DNA from: Bosea sp. RAC05
GTDB taxonomy: Bacteria; Pseudomonadota; Alphaproteobacteria; Rhizobiales; Beijerinckiaceae
DNA length: 64,000 nucleotides
Reading direction: 5' to 3'
Assembly (NCBI RefSeq): GCF_001713455.1
Contig: NZ_CP016464.1
Span: 2,156,001 to 2,220,000 of the forward strand
Of this stretch, positions 21,105 through 30,904 are shown piece by piece; the first letter of the stretch is position 1, and each line of letters starts with the position of its first letter. The notes below the pieces were generated by a model, which was not told where the DNA came from, ran no database searches, and worked only from the letters and a program-made list of their open reading frames with translations. Made by a program: the position numbers and the translations under genes.

Positions 21105-22034
21105 TCACAGCGTCGTTTCGACCGTCCCGTCCGCGAGCACGAAGATCGCATCCATGTCCATCAAGCGGGCCAGACGTGGCCCGGCGATCTCACCCATCAC
21201 CAGCAGGGCCGTCGCCCAGGCGTCGGCTTCCAGGCCTGTCTCCGCCAGCACCGTCACGGACGCCAGCCTGTTTTCCAGGGGCATGCCGCTGCGTGGGTCC
21301 ATCGTGTGCGAGATCGTGCGCGCACCGATATCGCGATAATGGCGGTAGTTTCCGGAGGTCGCGATGGCGCGGTCCTCGAGTTCGATGACGCCCATCGCCT
21401 CGCGGACGCCCCGCACCGGACGCTCATGGGCGACGGCCCAGGACGTTCCGTCGGGCTTGGCCCCGCTCGCCCGCATTTCGCCGTCAATGCCGACCAGCCA
21501 GGCGGGGATCGAAAACTGGCGCATCACGCGCGCCATCTCGTCGACCCCGTGCCCCTTGGCGATGCCCGACAGGTCGAGCGCGAGGGTCGCGTGCTTGCGC
21601 GCCCTGCGCAGGTGCGGATCGAGTTCGAGCGCCTCTGCCGTGATCGCCGGTTTCGGCACGGCAGGGCCTCCCGGAAGGCCGTCGCCGTGGGCCGGTCTGG
21701 CCCCGAAGCCCCAGGCGCCGACGAGGTCGCCGACGCCGATGTCGAAGGCACCCTGCGACTGCCGGCCGATCCGCAGGGACGCCTGCAGGACGCTCATCAA
21801 TTCCGCGGGAACGGGCACCCAGACCCTGGTGGCCGCATCATTGAGGCGGTTGAGGTCCGATTCGGGCTTCCAGGTCGACATCTGGCGGTCGACCCGATCC
21901 AGCGTCGACTGCAGGGCGGCGGCGAGCCTGCGCTCATCGACATCGCCGGAGCCGTAGAAGACCGCCGAATAGCGCGTGCCCATCGTCGGCCCGCTGAGGC
22001 TGCGGCGCTCCGCCGCCGGGTGGTCAGTAGACAT
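21105..22034 (-). CDS. apbE: FAD:protein FMN transferase (ApbE family)
   Basis: This 309-residue protein moves FMN from FAD to a Ser/Thr of target proteins. It has the early PTMGTRYSAVFYG segment, the LDLSGIAKGHGVD motif, the ATSGNYRHYR motif and the metal/FAD region with SHTMDPRSG and the C-terminal EADAWATALLVMG. It overlaps the end of the PepSY flavoprotein gene by 11 bp. Unlike many ApbE proteins it shows no signal peptide or lipobox, and no upstream in-frame start supplies one. Its probable target is the DUF2271 protein two genes upstream. Confidence 0.9.
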   Translation of the reverse strand: MSTDHPAAERRSLSGPTMGTRYSAVFYGSGDVDERRLAAALQSTLDRVDRQMSTWKPESDLNRLNDAATRVWVPVPAELMSVLQASLRIGRQSQGAFDIGVGDLVGAWGFGARPAHGDGLPGGPAVPKPAITAEALELDPHLRRARKHATLALDLSGIAKGHGVDEMARVMRQFSIPAWLVGIDGEMRASGAKPDGTSWAVAHERPVRGVREAMGVIELEDRAIATSGNYRHYRDIGARTISHTMDPRSGMPLENRLASVTVLAETGLEADAWATALLVMGEIAGPRLARLMDMDAIFVLADGTVETTL

Positions 22035-24237
22035 CTTCGAGGTAGAGCCCGCTCGCCTTGAGCGCGATCGTGCTCAGGCCCATCGGGGCCAGGATCGCGT
22101 CGAGGGCCTGGGAGACGCCGCCGGCCATCTCGCGCCCGCCGCAGACCATGATCTGGGCGCCGCGCTGCAGCAGCGCAGCCAGATGCGGGCCATCGCTCGC
22201 CAGCCCGTCCTGCACATAGCCGCCCGCTGCGACCCGCGAGAAGACGGCGTTCAGCGCGGTCAGGCGCCCGTCGGCCATGCAGGCGGCGAGGTCTTCGCGG
22301 TAGAGGAAGTCGGAGGCCGGGGAACGCCCGCCCCAATAGAGATGCGCCTCGCGATGCGTCCGGTTGGCGCGCAGGAAACCCATCAGCGGTGCGATGCCGG
22401 CCCCGGCGCCGATCAGGATCAGCGGGGTCGCCTTGGCATTGGGCCGGAAGGCGGGGTTGGCCTTGATGAAGCCGTCGATCCGGCCGCCGAGCGGCAGGTC
22501 GTTGAGAAAGCCCGAGCAGAGCCCGCCGGGCTGCTTGCGCACGCAGATCTCGAGGATGCCCTCGCGCGCCGACGAGGCGAGCGAGTAATAGCGCGGCACG
22601 GTGCTGCCGGGTGGGAGGATGCCGACGAGGTCGCCGGCCTCGAAGGGCGGCAGCGAGGCCGGGAACAGCCGCTTCCACAGGGGGCGCCCGGCCGCGGCTC
22701 CCGGCAGGCGGAAGGTCAGGATGGCGGTCGGCGCCTGGACCTCGGCGCCGTAGTCCACGCGCTTCACCAGTTCGAGCGTCGTGGTCTTCGGCCGCTCCGC
22801 GACATGGGCGAGCGTCAGGGCGTGCCCGAGCGCCATCCCCAGCTTGTTGCCCCAGAGGGCGAAGGACTGGGCCGACTGGCGGTCGATGCGGTCGATCTCG
22901 ATCAGAGCCGGCCAGCCCTTCTTGGCCAGGGCAGTGCCGACATCCTCGGCGAAGCGGCAGAATCTCGGAAAGCTGCGGTCGCCGAAGCCCAGCACGGCGA
23001 CGGGCAGGGTCAACGTGCTGCGGTCGAGCCTCGCCAGGAAGCCGCTGGCGCTCGCGGGCGCCGTGCCGTCGCCATAGGTCGCGGTCAGGATCAGCATCCG
23101 CGCTGCTTTCGGATAGGCGGGCGCCAGCGCGTTCATCGGCGCCGCGTGGACCTTGTGTCCGGCCTGCGTCAGCGCGGCATGCAGCGTCCTGGCAAAGCCC
23201 CAGGTGCTGTTGCCCTCGCTGCCGACCAGGATGATCGTGTCGGCCGCAGAGGCCGGGCGGTTATCGGCGATACGGGGCAGCGAGCGGCGGCGTTGCCACC
23301 AGATCATCGCGCCGGTGACCGCAAAGACCGGCACCGCCAGGGCAGACAGCCCCAGCAGCAGGCCCAGCGGCCACAGGCCCTGGCCGGTGTGGAGCATGTA
23401 GATCATCTCGTAGAACTGCCGGGCGGTCGAATGCGGCTGGAAGGATAGCGCTTCGCCAGTGGTCGCATCGATCTGCGTCACGCCGGCCGCGGTGGTCAGC
23501 CTGTAGGTGTCGGTCGGGTCGGCCGCATAGGGAAAGGCGAGTTCGCGCAGATCGGCGAGGTTGACGGCCTGCAGCGCCGCGAGGCTGCCGACCGATGCGC
23601 GCTCGCCGCCGATGCCGGACGACGTTGCCACGGGATCGGCCGACCCGTCTGGGATCAGCTCGAAACTGGTCAGCGACAGGAAACACCCGGTCATCGCGGT
23701 CAGCAGCAATCCGACGATGGCGAGGCGCCCGGCCTGCGCATGCCAGCGCTGGCGGGCGCTGCCGCGGATCGGCCGCAGCCAGGCCGACCAGCCGCCCTGG
23801 CGCGCCGCCAGCATCATCGCGCCGGTGACGGTGAGGACGACCATCGCCAGAGCGCCGAGACCCGCCGCGACGCGGCCGGCCGTGCCCACAAGCAGCGAGC
23901 GGTGCAGGTTGGTGATGAAGCGGATGGTGGCCGACGGCGTATGCGGGCCCATCACCCGTCCCGTGGCCGGATCGACGACGTCCGCGCCGGCCTTGTCGCC
24001 CTCGAAATAGCTCACGACGAGCGATCCGGAGGCGGTCTGGACGATCTTGTCGATCTCGGCATGCTGCGCCCGGGCGGCCTCGGCCAGTGCCGCGACGCTG
24101 ATCGTTCCCGTGACGACCGAAGGCGCCGCGAAGCGCTCCAGCGCCGGCTGGACCGACAGGACGGCACCGGTCAGCGCCAGCACCGCGACGAGCAGCGCAG
24201 CGATCAGGCCGGGCAGGGAGTGGATCTGGCGCAGCAT
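22024..24237 (-). CDS. PepSY-TM / flavodoxin / ferredoxin-reductase fusion protein
   Basis: This 737-residue protein has four membrane segments (about 10-29, 125-144, 171-190, 291-313) around two extracytoplasmic PepSY-like regions. A cytoplasmic flavodoxin domain follows (from about 335, VGSEGNSTWGFA), then an FAD/NADP reductase domain with RYYSLAS and LILIGAGAGIAPLMGF. His6, His112, His166 and His283 near the membrane ends could bind heme. The layout suggests electrons pass from NAD(P)H through FAD and FMN, then across the membrane. Neighbours are ApbE and a DUF2271 protein with a flavin-attachment motif. Confidence 0.88.
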   Translation of the reverse strand: MLRQIHSLPGLIAALLVAVLALTGAVLSVQPALERFAAPSVVTGTISVAALAEAARAQHAEIDKIVQTASGSLVVSYFEGDKAGADVVDPATGRVMGPHTPSATIRFITNLHRSLLVGTAGRVAAGLGALAMVVLTVTGAMMLAARQGGWSAWLRPIRGSARQRWHAQAGRLAIVGLLLTAMTGCFLSLTSFELIPDGSADPVATSSGIGGERASVGSLAALQAVNLADLRELAFPYAADPTDTYRLTTAAGVTQIDATTGEALSFQPHSTARQFYEMIYMLHTGQGLWPLGLLLGLSALAVPVFAVTGAMIWWQRRRSLPRIADNRPASAADTIILVGSEGNSTWGFARTLHAALTQAGHKVHAAPMNALAPAYPKAARMLILTATYGDGTAPASASGFLARLDRSTLTLPVAVLGFGDRSFPRFCRFAEDVGTALAKKGWPALIEIDRIDRQSAQSFALWGNKLGMALGHALTLAHVAERPKTTTLELVKRVDYGAEVQAPTAILTFRLPGAAAGRPLWKRLFPASLPPFEAGDLVGILPPGSTVPRYYSLASSAREGILEICVRKQPGGLCSGFLNDLPLGGRIDGFIKANPAFRPNAKATPLILIGAGAGIAPLMGFLRANRTHREAHLYWGGRSPASDFLYREDLAACMADGRLTALNAVFSRVAAGGYVQDGLASDGPHLAALLQRGAQIMVCGGREMAGGVSQALDAILAPMGLSTIALKASGLYLEDVY

Positions 24238-24255: not shown

Positions 24256-24735
24256 TCACATGTCGAAGGTCAGGGATTTCACATAGCCGCGCCCGGCGAC
24301 GGGCTTGCCCGCACCAGCCGTCGCCAGCGGCGCGACCGCGTCGCCGGGGACGTCGTTTTCGTTCTCGACGGCGCTGTCGACGCGGATCTGGTAGCCGGCG
24401 TCGATCAGCGCATCGGCAATCTCGATACTGACCGTGAGCGACTGTCCGCTGCCGACGCTGGCGCCGGTCGTGCCGTCGATCTTGCCGCCCGACAGCCTGT
24501 TCCAGGCGCTGAGATGCTTGTGATACTTGGCCTTGCCGCCGGCGATCCTGACCGTTTTGGCGAGCTTGCCCTGCGGATCGGTGATGTAGATCGCCAGATA
24601 GGCGCCGTCCCCGCCATAGGGCTTCAAGGTCGTGGTGATACGGACGGGCCGTGCCTCGGCGACGGCGCTGTGCGCGATGACACCGGCGAGACCGAGCGGG
24701 AGGGCGAGCGTCAGGGCGCGGGCGAGAGATCTCAT
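24256..24735 (-). CDS. DUF2271 exported protein with FMN-attachment motif
   Basis: The protein, about 159 residues, has a Sec-type signal (roughly residues 1-26, ending AVAEA) and the DUF2271 body. It contains D87-G-T-T-G-A-S93, which fits the ApbE flavinylation pattern D-x-x-[ST]-G-A-[ST], so Thr90 should carry covalent FMN. ATG 24735 is preferred over ATG 24750 because GAGGAGA lies at the right distance. The gene is followed by the PepSY flavoprotein and apbE. It is probably the extracytosolic electron acceptor of that protein. Confidence 0.85.
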   Translation of the reverse strand: MRSLARALTLALPLGLAGVIAHSAVAEARPVRITTTLKPYGGDGAYLAIYITDPQGKLAKTVRIAGGKAKYHKHLSAWNRLSGGKIDGTTGASVGSGQSLTVSIEIADALIDAGYQIRVDSAVENENDVPGDAVAPLATAGAGKPVAGRGYVKSLTFDM

Positions 24736-24795
24736 GGCAATTCTCCTCATGGCAACGCTCAGGGTTGCGGAAGCGATGCGAGGAGAGATGCGCCG

Positions 24796-24816
24796 CGAAG
24801 CTGACAGCGACCTGAA
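24796..24816 (-). promoter_or_regulatory. Response-regulator box upstream of the DUF2271 gene
   Basis: The 21 bp on the minus strand read TTCAG-N6-GTCAGCTTCG. They match the box at 26922-26942 in 19 of 21 positions and the one at 26960-26980 in 16. The two half-sites (T/G)TCAG are 11 bp apart, the spacing used by OmpR/PhoB-type regulators. It lies 61-81 bp upstream of the DUF2271 start and points to it. Confidence 0.65.
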
Positions 24817-24834
24817 GACGACGCAGAAAGACGT

Positions 24835-26193
24835 TCAGCCGGCTTTCAGCGTCGCGGCGGGGAGCCGTACCGCAACCTCGAGGCCACCGGCCTGTCCTGT
24901 TGCGGGCGAGACGAAAGCGATCTCGGCGCCGACCCCTTGTGCGATCGCCTGGACGATCGAGAGGCCGAGCCCCGCCCCCTCGGCCATGGTCGTGCCGCGC
25001 ACGAAGCGCTGCGTCATCGCCGCGAGCATCACCGGTTCCAGAACCGGCCCGGGGCTGACGACGCTGAAGCGCCCGTCATCCGTCAGCGCCACACGCACCG
25101 GCTGGCTGGCGTCGCCATGCTTGAGGGCGTTCTCGATCAGATTGCGGGCCAGGATCGCGAAGGCGTCCAGATCCAGCGTCGAGACGAACCGGCCCGCCGG
25201 CGGCAGCGCGACGGCGACCGCGCCCTCGGCCGCCAGGTCGTCGAGGACGAGGCGCAGCGCCGGCACGAGGTCTTCAGGCGCTTCACCGATCAGACTGGCG
25301 CCCTCGGCCCGGGCGAGCTGGAGCAGTTTTTCCGACAGGCGCGCCAGCCGCTTGAGCGCACTTTCGATCTCGACCGTCCGGGCGCGGGCGGCGCCTTCCG
25401 GCAGTTCGGCTCTGAGACGCTGGGCCTGCGCCAGAGCAGCCGCCACCGGCGTGCGCAGTTCATGGGCGCTGTTGGCGGTGAAGCTGCGCTCGGCATCCAG
25501 CGCCCGGCGCACCCGCGCCATCAGCGCGTTCACCGCCTCGGCCACCGGAGCGATCTCCGAGGGGAGGTGGCTGACGGACACCGGCGCCAGATGACCGCTG
25601 CCCCGCGCCTCGATCTCGTGTCTAAAAGCCACGACCGGCCGCAAGGTGACCGCGACCAGCACCCAGGTCCCGGCGATGCCGAGCGGGAGCAGCAGGACCA
25701 GCGGCCAGGCGAGCAGCCTGATCGCATCGCGGACCGCCTTCTGGCGATGGCCGGGACGCTCGGCGGCGGTGACGACGATCGTCCCGCTGACGGCAATCTC
25801 GGTATAGAGCCGCGAACTCGGCCCGTCGCTGAAGCCATGGGCTGGGTTCGGCGGAAACTGGGCGAGATCGGCGTCGTGGGACTGCAGCAACCGGCGGCCC
25901 GACGCATCGCGCACGATGTAGGTGATGTACTCGCGGTGTGCGCCGACCGAGGCGATCCGTTGCGGATCGGACCCGGCATCCGCCTCGCGAGCGAGGATCT
26001 CGGTGTAGGCCAGCGGCAGGACCCGCTGCACCACCTCCTGCAGGGCGCTGTCGAAGACCTCGTCGATCTCCCGGCGCAACAGCAGGCCCGCGGCCACGGT
26101 CGCGAGCAGCCACAGCGCCATGACACCGCCCGTCAGCGCCAGCGCCAGCCGCCGCTGCAGGCTGCCCCTGGGCGGCCAGGCGACGTGCATCAT
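24835..26193 (-). CDS. Sensor histidine kinase (two-component system)
   Basis: This 452-residue kinase has two membrane segments (about 16-38 and 161-183) with a periplasmic sensor loop of some 120 residues between them. A HAMP-like linker, the H-box SAHELRTPV with His244, the N-box NLIENALKHG and the G-box GAGLGLSIVQA follow. This is the QseC/PhoQ-type design. ATG 26193 overlaps the response-regulator stop (ATGA). The signal is unknown; the target is probably the downstream flavin electron-transfer genes. Confidence 0.9.
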   Translation of the reverse strand: MMHVAWPPRGSLQRRLALALTGGVMALWLLATVAAGLLLRREIDEVFDSALQEVVQRVLPLAYTEILAREADAGSDPQRIASVGAHREYITYIVRDASGRRLLQSHDADLAQFPPNPAHGFSDGPSSRLYTEIAVSGTIVVTAAERPGHRQKAVRDAIRLLAWPLVLLLPLGIAGTWVLVAVTLRPVVAFRHEIEARGSGHLAPVSVSHLPSEIAPVAEAVNALMARVRRALDAERSFTANSAHELRTPVAAALAQAQRLRAELPEGAARARTVEIESALKRLARLSEKLLQLARAEGASLIGEAPEDLVPALRLVLDDLAAEGAVAVALPPAGRFVSTLDLDAFAILARNLIENALKHGDASQPVRVALTDDGRFSVVSPGPVLEPVMLAAMTQRFVRGTTMAEGAGLGLSIVQAIAQGVGAEIAFVSPATGQAGGLEVAVRLPAATLKAG

Positions 26194-26879
26194 GGCGGGC
26201 TCTTCCCGCAACCCGCCAGCGTGGCGGCGCCCAGCCGATAGCCCATGCCGCGAACGGTTTCGATCACCTCCGCCCCGAGCTTCTTGCGCAGGCGCCCGAC
26301 ATAGACCTCGATCGTGTTGCTCTCGACCTCGCTATCGAAGGTGTAGAGCCGCTCTTCGAGCAGTGCCTTGGAGAGCAGCATGGTCGGCCGCTGGATGAAG
26401 GCGTCGAACAGGGCCCATTCGCGCGCGGTCAGGGAGATCGAGTGGCCGTCCCGGACAATGCTGCGCGCCGCCAGATCCAGCGTCAGCCCGCCGATCTGCA
26501 TCAGCGGGTTCGGGTTGCCGCCATAGCGGCGCGCCACCGCGCTCAGGCGCGCCGAGAGCTCCGCCAGATCGAAGGGCTTGACCAGATAGTCGTCGGCGCC
26601 GGCATTGAGCCCGGCGATCCGGTCGGAGACCTGGTCGCGCGCCGTCAGGATGATCACTGCGGTCGTGTCGCCGGCCTGTCGGCGGGCGCGCAGGAAATCG
26701 AGACCGCGCCCGTCGGGCAGCATCAGATCGAGCAGGATCAGGTCGTAATGCGCCAGCCGGACAAACGCGCCAGCGTCCGCCAGCCGCTTCGCCCAGTCGA
26801 CGCCATGGCCGTCGGCGGCCACCTGGTCGCGCACGGCGGACCCCAGGATCGGGTCGTCCTCGACGAGGAGCACGCGCAT
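26190..26879 (-). CDS. OmpR-family response regulator
   Basis: This 229-residue regulator has the receiver acidic pair at Asp8/Asp9, phosphoacceptor Asp51 (LLDLMLPDG) and Lys101 (DDYLVKPFD), and a C-terminal winged helix with RLYTFDSEVESNTIEVYVGRLR. ATG 26879 has GGAAGG nine bases upstream; a longer reading is not needed. It is first of an operon with the kinase. Related TTCAG-N6-GTCAG boxes lie before this gene, before the DUF2271 gene and before the divergent PepSY gene, so it probably controls all three. Confidence 0.9.
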   Translation of the reverse strand: MRVLLVEDDPILGSAVRDQVAADGHGVDWAKRLADAGAFVRLAHYDLILLDLMLPDGRGLDFLRARRQAGDTTAVIILTARDQVSDRIAGLNAGADDYLVKPFDLAELSARLSAVARRYGGNPNPLMQIGGLTLDLAARSIVRDGHSISLTAREWALFDAFIQRPTMLLSKALLEERLYTFDSEVESNTIEVYVGRLRKKLGAEVIETVRGMGYRLGAATLAGCGKSPP

Positions 26880-26921
26880 GTCGTCATCTGCCTTCCGGAA
26901 CGGATACCCCCGGTTATGGCA

Positions 26922-26942
26922 CGAAGCTGACAGCGGGCTGAA
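26922..26942 (-). promoter_or_regulatory. Response-regulator box upstream of its own gene
   Basis: This is the second copy of the TTCAG-N6-GTCAGCTTCG box, on the minus strand, 43-63 bp upstream of the response-regulator start. It is nearly identical to the copy at 24796-24816 (19 of 21). Autoregulation is the simplest reading. Confidence 0.65.
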
Positions 26943-26959
26943 CGCATTCGCGCCGGCCA

Positions 26960-26980
26960 TTCAGGTGAGCGTCAGCTTGG
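26960..26980 (+). promoter_or_regulatory. Response-regulator box upstream of the PepSY gene
   Basis: This third copy lies on the plus strand and reads TTCAGGT, four variable bases, then GTCAGCTT. It is 46-66 bp upstream of the small PepSY gene at 27026 and points to it. It matches 16 of 21 positions of the DUF2271 box, with both half-sites kept. Confidence 0.6.
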
Positions 26981-27025
26981 CATGGTTGAAAGCGCCATCG
27001 CCGCCCTGCGCGGAGGAGACATCCG

Positions 27026-27301
27026 ATGAAGCCCGTCCTGTCCATCACGGCGCTGACGATCCTCGTCGGCCTGGCCGCTCCCGCCCTCGCCAGCCAGCGC
27101 TGTTCGGCGCCCATGGCGGAGTGGAAGCCACGAGAGGCGCTGGTCGAAAAGCTGCGCGCCGAAGGCTGGACCATCCGCCGGATCAAGACCGACGATGGCT
27201 GCTACAAGGTTCGCGCCGTCGATGCCGAGGGCCGCCGCGTCAAGGCGAAGTTCGACCCCGCCACGCTGGAGCGCGTCGTGCGGGACGGCGACGACGACTG
27301 A
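27026..27301 (+). CDS. Small exported PepSY-domain protein
   Basis: This 91-residue protein has a signal peptide (about 1-22, ending PALAS) and one PepSY repeat with the typical LRAEGWTIRRIKTDDGCYKVRAVDAEGRRV stretch split over residues 43-72. Such proteins are periplasmic and often sit beside two-component systems, where they may sense or inhibit. It is divergent from the response regulator and carries its own copy of the regulator box. A GGAGGAG lies seven bases before the ATG. Confidence 0.82.
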   Translation: MKPVLSITALTILVGLAAPALASQRCSAPMAEWKPREALVEKLRAEGWTIRRIKTDDGCYKVRAVDAEGRRVKAKFDPATLERVVRDGDDD

Positions 27302-27417
27302 CGTTTGATTGGCAGCAGTCACAGGCCGGGCGTCGCAGCGGACAAGTGCGGTCGTCCTGGTCCATGGTGCCCGCCGGGGACGGCTCCCGCCTCCGGAGAA
27401 CCGGAAGGACCGACATC

Positions 27418-28113
27418 ATGCACCCCCTTCACCGCGAGACCCATCTGGTCGATCGGATCGGCTGGCTGCGGGCCGCCGTGCTCGGCGCCAATGACGGCAT
27501 CATCTCGACGGCGAGCCTCGTCGTCGGCGTCGCCGCCGCCGCCAAGAGCGCCGACGAGGTCATGGTCGCGGGCGTGGCCGGGCTCGTCGCCGGCGCGATG
27601 TCGATGGCGGCCGGCGAATATGTCTCCGTCAGCTCGCAGTCCGACACCGAGCAGGCCGATATGGGCCGCGAGCGCCGCGAACTCGCCGAGCAGCCCGCGG
27701 CCGAACTCGCCGAACTGACCCAGATCTATGTCGATCGTGGCGTCGAGCCGGGTCTGGCCCGGCAAGTCGCCGAGCAGATGACGGCGAAGGACGCCTTCGC
27801 GGCGCATGCGCGCGACGAGCTGGGACTCGCCGGTCACACCATCGCGCGGCCCGTCCAGGCGGCCGTGACCTCGGCCGCCACCTTCGCGGGCGGTGCCGCC
27901 ATCCCCCTGGCGATCGCCGTCATGGCGCCCGCCGGCTCGATCAGCTGGGCGGTCTCGGGCGGCTCGCTGGTCTGCCTGGCCCTGCTGGGAGCGCTCGGCG
28001 CCCGCATCGGCGGCGCCGACCTCGCCAGGCCGACGATCCGCGTCACCTTCTGGGGCGCCTTCGCCATGGCCGCGACCTGGGGCATCGGCGCGCTTGTCGG
28101 GCATGCCGTTTGA
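27418..28113 (+). CDS. VIT1/CCC1-family iron/manganese transporter
   Basis: This 231-residue membrane protein has the family start HRETHLVDRIGWLRAAVLGANDG and the following MSMAAGEYVSVSSQSDTE segment. It has about five membrane helices, with the acidic metal-binding region (DMGRERRELAE to FAAHARDELG) between the second and third. Members move Fe(II) or Mn(II) out of the cytoplasm. ATG 27418 has GGAAGG upstream. It follows the PepSY gene on the same strand, so a link between metal handling and the redox locus is possible but unproved. Confidence 0.9.
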   Translation: MHPLHRETHLVDRIGWLRAAVLGANDGIISTASLVVGVAAAAKSADEVMVAGVAGLVAGAMSMAAGEYVSVSSQSDTEQADMGRERRELAEQPAAELAELTQIYVDRGVEPGLARQVAEQMTAKDAFAAHARDELGLAGHTIARPVQAAVTSAATFAGGAAIPLAIAVMAPAGSISWAVSGGSLVCLALLGALGARIGGADLARPTIRVTFWGAFAMAATWGIGALVGHAV

Positions 28114-28495: not shown

Positions 28496-30904
28496 TTACG
28501 GGCGCGCCAGCCTCGCGGCGAGGCGCGCCAGCTCGGCATCATCAGGGCGCAGGCGTGATAGGCGACCGGCCAGATCCGCGGCGCCGGCGAGATCGCGCCG
28601 CGCCTGCGCGTCGGCGAGCAGCGCGCCGAGCAGGGCCGCATGGAAGGGGTTCGCCTGAAGCGCGCTGCGCAGGACCTGGCGTCCCTGTTCCGGCTGGCCG
28701 AGCGATTGCAGCGCAACGCCATGGACATAGGCCAGCTGCGCATCGCGCGGGCCGAGCCGCGAGGCCAAAGCGAGGCTCTCCAACGCCTCGGGATAGCGAC
28801 GCTGCCGCACCAGCGCGAGGCCGAGCGCATGATGCGGATAGGGCTCTTTCGGCGCCAGCGCGATCGCCTGCCGGAGCACCGCCTCGCCCTCCGGATCGCG
28901 TCCGCGCTGGCGCAGCAGGTCGGCCAGATTGACCGCGAGATCGACGGCCGCGGGATCGAGCGCCAGACCGGCGCGCAGCTCGGCCTCCGCCGCGTCCGGC
29001 CTGCCCCTGCGGATGAGATAGAGCGCCAGGGCGGCCCGCGCCTCGGGCCGGTCGGCATTGAGCGCCTGCGCCGCCTCGAACGCGGCGAAGGCGCGGGTCA
29101 GCTGGCCGCGAACCGGCTCCGACACGGTTTCGGGCGAGATGTCGGCCAGGGCCTGGGCGGCTTCGATCCGCACCCCGAGGACGGGATCGGCCAGACGCTC
29201 CTGCGCCCAGCGCAGGCGGATCTCGGCGGGCTGCGGCGAGAGGTTGCGCAAGGCGGCGATCCGCACGATCGGGTCCGGGTCGTCGAGGCCGAGACGGATG
29301 ACGCCTTCGGTGGCGATGGCGGGCAGCCGTCCGAGTTCGCTCTGTGCGGTTGCCCGCACGATCCCGGGGATCTGCGGGTTGCTCGCCAGCGCAATCAGCG
29401 GCGCGCGGGCCGCTGGATCTCCCCGGCGCGCATCGTGAAACGCTCTGGCATGGTCCTGAAAGCCTTTCCGTTGCGGCCCGTGCCACGCCACCACGGCCTC
29501 CGCGGCCCATTGCGCCGGCTTGTCCGCATGGCAGCTGTTGCAGCTGTTGGGGACCCCGAGGCTCACCGTCAGGTCGGGCCGCGGAACCCGGAATGAATGG
29601 TCATGGCGCTTGTCGACGACCATGTAGGTCCGCGCCGGCATATGGCAGGTGATGCAGTCGGGCGCCCCCCGGCCGGGTTGGTGCCCGGTATGCGTGGCGG
29701 CCTCGAAACGCTGCCGGTCGTGACACTGGCTGCAGACCAGTGGCCCCTCCGCCTTCAGCCTGCCGGAGTGAACGTCGTGGCAGTCGCTGCAGATCACGCC
29801 CTTCGCGTGCATCTTGCTCTGCCGGAAGGTCTGGTCGGTGAAGACCTCGTCGATCATCTGCCCGTCCGCTTCGAACAGGCCGCTCGTCAGCAGGGCCGGG
29901 AGGTGCGTGTCGGCGATCGAGCGCCCCGGCTTCCAGTCTTCCGAGATCGTGCCGCGCCGCTGGTGGCAGCGGGCGCAGGTCTCGACCTCGTCGCCCGGCG
30001 GGCGCGCGACGTGCGCGGCCGGGCTGCCCGTCGCCGGATCGGGCGTCCAGTCGACCGCCCCTCTCCGGGCTGCTGCCGCCTCGAACCCCTTCAGGACGGG
30101 GTCGCCGGTCCTGCCGGCCGCGGCCCAGGCGAGGTGGCCGGCAGCGGGCCCATGGCAGCTCTCGCAGCCGATGCTGACCTCGGAATAGGTCGTCCGAAAG
30201 CTGTTGGAGGCGGCGTCATAGCCCTTCTTCACCGCGGTCGAATGGCACTCCGCACACATGAAGTTCCAGTTCTGCATCCGGCCGGTCCAGTGCAGGGCGT
30301 CGCCGGGCGGAAACGACTGCTCGCCATAGACATGGAACCAGCGTTGTCCGCCCTGCGCCTGCGGGCGCGTATCCCAGGCCCAGGGCAGCGCCTGCAGCCG
30401 GCCATCGGGGAAGGTGACGAGGTATTGCTGGAGCGGCCGCCAGCCGAAGCTGTGGCTGATCGCGAAGCTTTCCGGCTTGCCGTCCTTCCCCTGCGTCTCG
30501 ACCAGGAAACGTTCGCCCTCGCGCCGAAACCGGGCCGTCTCGCCGTGATGCGCGATGGCGACATCGGAAAAATCGCCGAGAACGCTCTGAGGCGTCGCCA
30601 CGGCCATCGCCTTGGCGTGGTCCGATCCCTGCCAGTCGGCAAGCGTCGTCGCATGGCAGGCAGCGCAGGCCTGGGAGCCGACATAACCTGCCGGCGTATG
30701 GGGCGTCAGTTGCCCGATGCCGGATTCCGCGCCCATGGCCGGCGGCCTGGCCTGGGCCTGCGCCTGGTCCCGACGCGCGGTCTCGCCCTGGAGCAGCCCC
30801 ATCGCGAGGACCAGCAGCGCGGCCAGGACGCTGCCGGCGACGCCATGCGCGAGCGGGCTCGGCCTCCACCGCCTCAACCGTGCCAGGTCCGCCACGAACG
30901 CCAA
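28496..30904 (-). CDS. Eight-heme cytochrome c with C-terminal TPR-like repeats
   Basis: This 802-residue protein has one membrane/signal segment (about 19-40) and eight CxxCH heme sites: CAACH (80-84), CAECH, CESCH, CARCH, CSDCH, CSQCH, CITCH and CNSCH, all in the first 500 residues. A HEAT-like stretch and tetratricopeptide-like repeats fill the C-terminal third. It should be extracytosolic, passing electrons and binding partners through the repeats. It follows an outer-membrane protein gene by 12 bp. Its partner oxidoreductase is unknown; the flavin transfer locus upstream is a candidate. Confidence 0.88.
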   Translation of the reverse strand: MAFVADLARLRRWRPSPLAHGVAGSVLAALLVLAMGLLQGETARRDQAQAQARPPAMGAESGIGQLTPHTPAGYVGSQACAACHATTLADWQGSDHAKAMAVATPQSVLGDFSDVAIAHHGETARFRREGERFLVETQGKDGKPESFAISHSFGWRPLQQYLVTFPDGRLQALPWAWDTRPQAQGGQRWFHVYGEQSFPPGDALHWTGRMQNWNFMCAECHSTAVKKGYDAASNSFRTTYSEVSIGCESCHGPAAGHLAWAAAGRTGDPVLKGFEAAAARRGAVDWTPDPATGSPAAHVARPPGDEVETCARCHQRRGTISEDWKPGRSIADTHLPALLTSGLFEADGQMIDEVFTDQTFRQSKMHAKGVICSDCHDVHSGRLKAEGPLVCSQCHDRQRFEAATHTGHQPGRGAPDCITCHMPARTYMVVDKRHDHSFRVPRPDLTVSLGVPNSCNSCHADKPAQWAAEAVVAWHGPQRKGFQDHARAFHDARRGDPAARAPLIALASNPQIPGIVRATAQSELGRLPAIATEGVIRLGLDDPDPIVRIAALRNLSPQPAEIRLRWAQERLADPVLGVRIEAAQALADISPETVSEPVRGQLTRAFAAFEAAQALNADRPEARAALALYLIRRGRPDAAEAELRAGLALDPAAVDLAVNLADLLRQRGRDPEGEAVLRQAIALAPKEPYPHHALGLALVRQRRYPEALESLALASRLGPRDAQLAYVHGVALQSLGQPEQGRQVLRSALQANPFHAALLGALLADAQARRDLAGAADLAGRLSRLRPDDAELARLAARLARP

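Follow-up and report, generated by a model that had tools for sequence, protein, structure and literature searches.

In this study, we have examined a group of short repeated boxes around the gene of an OmpR-family response regulator in Bosea sp. RAC05, within a 64,000-nt stretch of the 5.62-Mb genome (NZ_CP016464.1, positions 2,156,001-2,220,000), hereafter the window, in whose coordinates positions are given. The regulator and its sensor kinase share one operon, a small PepSY gene diverges from it, and an operon for a DUF2271 protein, a reductase and ApbE lies beyond the kinase. The genes of this module are as follows.

26190..26879, minus strand: response regulator with Response_reg and Trans_reg_C domains, PmrA/QseB-like
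24835..26193, minus strand: sensor histidine kinase with HisKA and HATPase_c domains, QseC/PmrB-like, overlapping the regulator stop at ATGA
27026..27301, plus strand: small PepSY_2 protein of 91 aa (PF13670), divergent from the regulator
24256..24735, minus strand: DUF2271 protein, whose DGTTGAS fits the ApbE flavinylation motif
22024..24237, minus strand: reductase with PepSY_TM, flavodoxin and NAD-binding domains (by profile)
21105..22034, minus strand: ApbE (FAD:protein FMN transferase; by profile)

The regulator scores above the cut-offs of PF00072 and PF00486, as expected of an OmpR-family protein, and falls below the equivalog cut-offs of NCBIfam, the best named models being PmrA (207.1 of 330 bits) and QseB (186.6 of 345); its closest solved relatives are the BasR chains in the PDB. 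The kinase reading frame as listed reaches a TTG at 26211, and the DUF2271 start at ATG 24735 was picked by eye for the AGGAGA upstream of it, the listed start of the open reading frame (ORF) being 24750. The PepSY_2 protein is probably secreted, judging by eye from its N-terminus. With a small PepSY gene standing at most a few genes from those for kinase and regulator, the layout is like that of DbfQRS, and the combination of ApbE, a DUF2271 protein carrying [S/T]GA[S/T] and a PepSY_TM protein with a NAD-binding domain is the gene set of the PepSY-like flavinylation clusters.

Four boxes, forming two facing pairs, lie at the borders of these genes. Box positions are counted from the first base of the box, and A28 denotes an A at the second base of the −10 hexamer predicted at positions 27-32, ten bases past the box.

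24798..24816, minus strand: box 1, TTCAG-N6-GTCAGCTT, exact match, facing the promoter of the DUF2271-reductase-ApbE operon
24834..24852, plus strand: box 2, TTCAGCCGGCTTTCAGCGT, accessory box towards the kinase 3' end, without an A at position 28
26924..26942, minus strand: box 3, TTCAG-N6-GTCAGCTT, exact match, facing the promoter of the regulator-kinase operon (autoregulation)
26960..26978, plus strand: box 4, TTCAG-N6-GTCAGCTT, exact match, facing the promoter of the PepSY gene
24801..24849, no strand assigned: operator pair A, CTGAC-N6-CTGA-N19-TCAG-N6-TTCAG, one mismatch to the pair pattern
26927..26975, no strand assigned: operator pair B, CTGAC-N6-CTGA-N19-TCAG-N6-GTCAG, exact

The three exact copies, all inside 2.2 kb of the window, are those claimed in the original prediction, the ranges of which were 2 bp longer than measured here. 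The 11 bp it gave between half-sites agree with our measurement, and its 43-81 bp from box to gene start are right within the measuring convention: from the inner edge of the box, the start codon lies at 62 bp for DUF2271 (ATG 24735), 44 bp for the regulator (ATG 26879) and 47 bp for the PepSY gene (ATG 27026). The original prediction did not include a fourth copy, nor the arrangement in pairs, their fixed spacing or the partner boxes that lack a promoter. This fourth copy, box 2, overlaps the kinase stop codon and carries two mismatches to the 19-mer (one over the ten pentamer bases); once it is counted, two pairs of identical geometry emerge, both face-to-face (inverted) and with pentamers starting at 0, 11, 33 and 44 bp. 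At up to three mismatches, the window holds 18 matches to the box, compared with a mean of 9.75 in 100 shuffles, the maximum of which was 17.

Comparison of related loci supports a tie between the box and this clade of regulators. We considered 110 loci selected by regulator similarity alone, from a collection scan (80 loci kept of 595), a search of 61 genomes and the window itself, and looked for the box in the stretch of 200 bp that precedes the regulator start, allowing one mismatch in ten. It is present in 30 of the 32 loci at 56% regulator identity or more (window included), with both orientations in 26, in one of 11 loci at 50-56% identity and in two of 67 below 50%; shuffled upstream regions gave 1.3% and 0%. 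The kinase is matched in all 32 orthologous loci, PepSY_2 in 28 (in L034 the PepSY gene lies 2.4 kb away) and DUF2271 in 17, many of the 15 misses being short loci. This locus comparison upholds the local regulon proposed earlier, in which one autoregulated OmpR-family regulator would control the DUF2271 operon, its own regulator-kinase operon and the PepSY gene. Within the genus, box 1 is retained in L112-L115, and box 2 is found at the same junction in five relatives, with both pentamers intact in L113 and L116, an inner CTGAG in L112, an outer CTGGC in L115, and an outer CCGAC together with a spacing of 32 in L114.

The module reaches beyond the genus. In a sample of the class, the pair with a gap of 19 is found at no more than one mismatch in nine of 385 genomes, the control giving none in any genome; eight of the nine have it at this module and the ninth (G200, L149) elsewhere. 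A Marinobacter and a metagenome-assembled genome labelled Burkholderiales also carry the module. Regulator homologues occur on 158 plasmid records (E ≤ 1e-60), 107 of them with 60-80% identity and 102 predicted conjugative; 38 are from Pseudosulfitobacter and 20 from Sinorhizobium. Since many of these plasmids are predicted to be conjugative, the module may move between bacteria.

Among 28 measurable pairs upstream of the regulator, each box having at most two mismatches, 18 show an offset of 33 and six an offset of 34. A gene-blind search of 397 genomes of the order for exact CTGAC-N6-CTGA-N(gap)-TCAG-N6-GTCAG, with gaps of 0-39 (gap 19 corresponding to offset 33), returned 78 pairs, of which 42 have gap 19 and 29 have gap 9; gaps 8, 20 and 38 occur once each and gaps 28 and 30 twice each, and the reversed control gave none in any genome. 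All 18 loci fetched from the 43 places with gap 19 or 20 lie at this module. From the 29 gap-9 places, 11 loci were fetched (L158-L160, L171, L177-L183), nine of which match the regulator at 37-56% identity, some of them partially, and five the PepSY protein. Reading the ORFs of these loci, and scanning ten of them, revealed further PepSY proteins in L158 and L183; PepSY genes flank the operator on both sides in L178 and L179, cytochrome b561 genes adjoin it in L160 and L183, and L171 could not be read clearly. The readable gap-9 loci represent a second PepSY-linked two-component family, with the same four-pentamer inverted operator and an inner gap 10 bp shorter. It is possible, and we put it forward tentatively, that this amounts to a spacing code: two regulator families with nearly the same (T/G)TCAG half-sites would be told apart by an inverted-pair gap of 19 or 9, about one helical turn, so that contact between the facing dimers, and not the half-site alone, picks the regulator, while the cooperative switch at reductase promoters would consist of a promoter box and, at the exact spacing, a box without a promoter, frequently the better one.

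The whole host genome was covered by pattern searches. TTCAG-N6-GTCAGC occurs exactly eight times, three of them at the module. The original prediction had named scattering of the motif at random inside genes as evidence against it; the five other exact copies are all single and none is placed like a promoter box, L007 lying inside an ORF, L008 over a start codon and L003 at an ORF 3' end, while L002 is directed towards the 3' portion of a gene that by eye is SoxZ-like and for L001 a crude ORF filter gave no covering gene. At up to one mismatch there are 106 matches, against 60 in the reversed control, an excess for which codon usage and extra sites are both possible explanations. The pair pattern at up to three mismatches is met in six places, the two of the module at zero and one mismatch and four others at three (reversed control, two), so that no pair other than A and B exists in the 5.62 Mb at up to one mismatch; gap-9 pairs occur in two places, both with three mismatches (control, none). 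A wider regulon, sought by box plus −10 pattern at up to two mismatches, was rejected: the search found four places against two in the control, namely the three module boxes and one aimed into the SoxZ-like gene, a pattern that degenerate boxes could escape.

The half-site finds a counterpart in the recognition helix. An alignment places Gly-Arg at residues 195-196 of the window regulator, and all 38 clade regulators with the box (seven of them found via the pair pattern) have Ser, Gly or Ala followed by Arg, Arg196 being present throughout. Arg is likewise present in two more remote regulators retained by the box filter (one mismatch) and, at the equivalent position, in the five full regulators of the gap-9 family in which the helix was read. 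The tandem arrangement with its 11-bp period upstream of the regulator is that of PmrA/QseB/BqsR-type boxes, and the clade has TTCAG/GTCAG in place of TTAAG. Among eight regulators with a TTAAG-type box (at most one mismatch), the two residues are His-Asn in three, His-His in three, His-Gln in one and Ala-Ala in one; BasR in the PDB has His-Asn. Both box types are found in the same genus, as L126-L130, from other genomes of the genus and at 47-48% identity, have an exact TTAAG-N6-TTAAG upstream (five of five read) and His-Asn or His-His in the helix. Residues 195-196 are a candidate specificity switch.

Where the neighbouring gene is known, the A of the predicted −10 element largely separates boxes that serve a promoter from those that do not. 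Of the promoters of the regulator, 26 of 30 have A28, as do 28 of 35 of those of PepSY and all six of those of DUF2271 for which a start lies no more than 300 bp away. From the 30 aligned regulator promoters, two −10 elements can be placed in the window.

24785..24790, minus strand: predicted −10 of the DUF2271 promoter, box positions 27-32, CATCTC, with A28
26911..26916, minus strand: predicted −10 of the regulator promoter, box positions 27-32, with A28

A sigma-70 consensus scan of 24600-27500 detected no promoter, as would be expected for promoters without a −35 element, and Rfam, applied at gathering scores, gave no RNA family anywhere in the window. At least one pair lies upstream of DUF2271 in 18 of 20 loci with this gene. 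In the 42 pairs upstream of DUF2271, the box on the promoter side has A28 in 40, and the partner box has it in 13 of 15 cases when facing a regulator start, in two of 21 when the kinase or PepSY gene lies with its 3' end towards it, and in two of six when the neighbour was not identified. As partner boxes facing no gene mostly lack A28, the pair itself looks like the operator, and on balance we regard it as the functional unit, with greater confidence for the family as a whole than for pair A in this genus.

All together, these observations make it quite likely that the boxes are sites of the regulator at 26190-26879, organized as a paired cooperative operator that would activate three targets with feedback from the PepSY protein. 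The sites, their pairing and spacing, their conservation and the link to the clade are read from sequence; from them we infer binding, cooperativity and activation, as well as the feedback, the signal and the acceptor. Each box would hold one regulator dimer on two head-to-tail pentamers 11 bp apart, and two facing boxes, with pentamers at 0, 11, 33 and 44 bp, would bring two dimers onto one face of the DNA, probably cooperatively, the pair being the operator. A box with its far end 10 bp before the −10 element, and with no good −35 hexamer, would be an activator site. In this regard, the box resembles the pho box of PhoB, the direct repeats of which have an 11-bp period, replace the −35 element and end about 10 bp before the −10; repeat and regulator are different, and the pho box is not known to have a fixed inverted partner. 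An active kinase would then phosphorylate the regulator, leading to more transcription of the regulator-kinase, PepSY and DUF2271-reductase-ApbE units. The PepSY protein probably acts back on the kinase in the manner of DbfQ on DbfS, and the products of the reductase operon would deliver electrons, through a DUF2271 protein carrying flavin, to an acceptor in the periplasm, for which a metal is the likeliest candidate.

The boxes might instead be independent promoter sites, their pairing a by-product of back-to-back divergent promoters and the boxes that face no gene relics of rearrangement or antisense promoters. Both boxes serve genes in the regulator-PepSY intergene, and regulator and DUF2271 are directly divergent in L173, L174 and L184, a plausible ancestral state; the damage to box 2 in three of five same-genus relatives also fits independent sites. 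A relic, however, would lose its pentamers as readily as its −10 element, and the partner boxes that face a 3' end have kept pentamers and the 33/34-bp spacing, with A28 in only two of 21. Moreover, L031, L038, L040, L041 and L125 combine a perfect partner box with a promoter-side box that has two mismatches, the reverse of the window; in other loci, window included, either both boxes are good or the partner is the weaker. We consider independent sites unlikely.

That the boxes belong to another OmpR-family regulator is more improbable still. A FeuP-like protein would be an example, as a candidate FeuP motif described in Sinorhizobium, TTCA-N7-TTCA, has the same 11-bp period (PMC3616915). Regulators that we assigned ourselves as FeuP-like (L131-L140, no named FeuP being compared) have TTCA-N7-TTCA about 390-480 bp upstream in nine of ten cases, and those nine share the Gly-Arg helix of the window regulator. 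FeuP itself probably falls in a different clade, the self-assigned loci standing at 41-44% identity. Of the 32 orthologous loci, however, 30 have the box next to the adjacent regulator, and with one mismatch allowed the genome holds no further copy of the pair, which argues for autoregulation rather than for the global regulon of another protein. Chance or coding constraint, for which the overlap of box 2 with the kinase stop codon and the five further single exact 17-mers in the genome might speak, deserves practically no credence: window shuffles, the genome-wide pair search, the orthologous loci and the order-wide gap counts are all against it, and for boxes 1, 3 and 4 chance is ruled out by conservation across loci with 56-99% regulator identity.

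Several observations weigh against the paired operator of an autoregulated activator, as preferred here. The window PepSY promoter has no A28 (the DUF2271 and regulator promoters do), and A28 is found in 24 of 43 boxes without a recognised gene start within 300 bp, a class that mixes accessory boxes with promoters of unrecognised or farther starts, so that A28 separates the classes only once the neighbour is known. The DUF2271 pairs were accepted only at offset 33 or 34 and with at most two mismatches per box; as 21 of the 42 come from loci picked by the pair pattern, box quality is partly selected, and as the loci are related, a Fisher p of 4e-6 overstates their independence. L036 and L060 have DUF2271 and no such pair upstream, and offsets of 42, 44, 51 and 58 occur once each among the 28 regulator-upstream pairs. 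L044 and L047, as well as L046 at 55.8% identity, have no upstream box. The link to the reductase is not universal, DUF2271 being near in only 12 of the 18 orthologous loci with several kb of flank (the window, L031-L045, L047 and L060). Arg196 is not sufficient, as L072, L075, L095 and other regulators with a Ser/Gly-Arg helix show no such box. Of the two boxes of pair A, the imperfect one in the window is on the accessory side and not at the promoter, and box 2 is damaged in three of five same-genus relatives. Finally, the ExxE motif, which BqsS uses for Fe(II) (PMC12666569) and which the window kinase has as REIDE at 47-51, is present in only 21 of 31 aligned clade kinases and preceded by R, H or K in 15, for which reason iron sensing via ExxE is not supported as a defining trait.

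Several known systems resemble this one; they are compared here as far as the passages covered of the respective papers describe them. BqsR of Pseudomonas aeruginosa binds TTAAG-N6-TTAAG, in which the 6-bp spacer is essential, and activates transcription, its downstream pentamer overlapping the −35 element (PMC4682146). BqsRS/CarRS (bqsPQRS) shares with the present system an OmpR-family regulator acting, here by prediction, as activator, tandem pentamers with a 6-bp spacer, a box at its own promoter and neighbouring PepSY genes, while here the half-sites are TTCAG/GTCAG, the boxes form inverted pairs of fixed spacing rather than the tandem clusters of BqsR, the downstream pentamer would not lie at −35 and the predicted target is a flavin reductase operon. 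PepSY-kinase-regulator modules are widespread, and the Vibrio PepSY protein DbfQ binds the kinase DbfS and favours its phosphatase activity, with PA2658 and BqsS as Pseudomonas relatives (PMC12714742). DbfQRS of Vibrio cholerae likewise has a small secreted PepSY protein next to regulator and kinase, with opposite-strand layouts reported in other species; it differs in that dbfQ lies inside the dbfRS operon, its targets are biofilm and metabolism, iron left the reporter output unchanged, and no operator is described in those passages. FeuNPQ of Sinorhizobium meliloti combines an alphaproteobacterial regulator, a cotranscribed negative modulator and a candidate motif with an 11-bp period, but its targets are genes such as ndvA and the passage covered has no paired operator.

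As regards the target, DUF2271 proteins are flavinylated by ApbE at [S/T]GA[S/T], and PepSY_TM clusters, some of which carry VIT1, have been linked to iron reduction (PMC8238504). The present module agrees with such clusters in its gene set, the NAD-binding PepSY_TM protein and a VIT1 gene nearby, and the flavinylation motif is present in the window DUF2271 protein and in the other 15 sequences readable through the site (of 20 in the set, three being cut by the locus end). The named cases in Shewanella and Caulobacter are repressed by Fur, whereas here a putative two-component operator lies at the promoter. By analogy, the system may be described as one that regulates itself and activates a flavin reductase of the periplasm, with feedback through the PepSY protein.

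Beyond the PepSY gene lies one further gene that is a candidate regulon member.

27418..28113, plus strand: VIT1-family transporter, 3' of the PepSY gene

VIT1 stands beside PepSY in four of five same-genus relatives (L113-L116, not L112). Just past it, a large minus-strand ORF at 28496-30904 has several CxxCH motifs and a repeat-rich C-terminal part, and its product looks, by eye, multihaem cytochrome-like.

Boxes of the PmrA, BqsR and FeuP type and PepSY two-component systems were known already. We found no paper describing this box or its pairing among the titles, abstract beginnings and passages that made up our partial coverage of the literature, and as far as that coverage shows, the following features are new: the half-site that this clade uses, its inverted pairs held at one of two discrete spacings, partner boxes that lack a promoter, and the connection with a DUF2271 reductase operon. 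The present loci would offer a clean case of operator geometry, in which two discrete spacings occur and promoter-bearing boxes stand next to promoter-less ones, and TTAAG versus TTCAG would be a natural half-site difference that goes with two recognition-helix residues in related regulators of a single genus. Also, one specific sensor system would be linked to a flavin-based reductase operon of the periplasm that is widespread and has an uncertain role, which may provide a handle on the signal of that operon.

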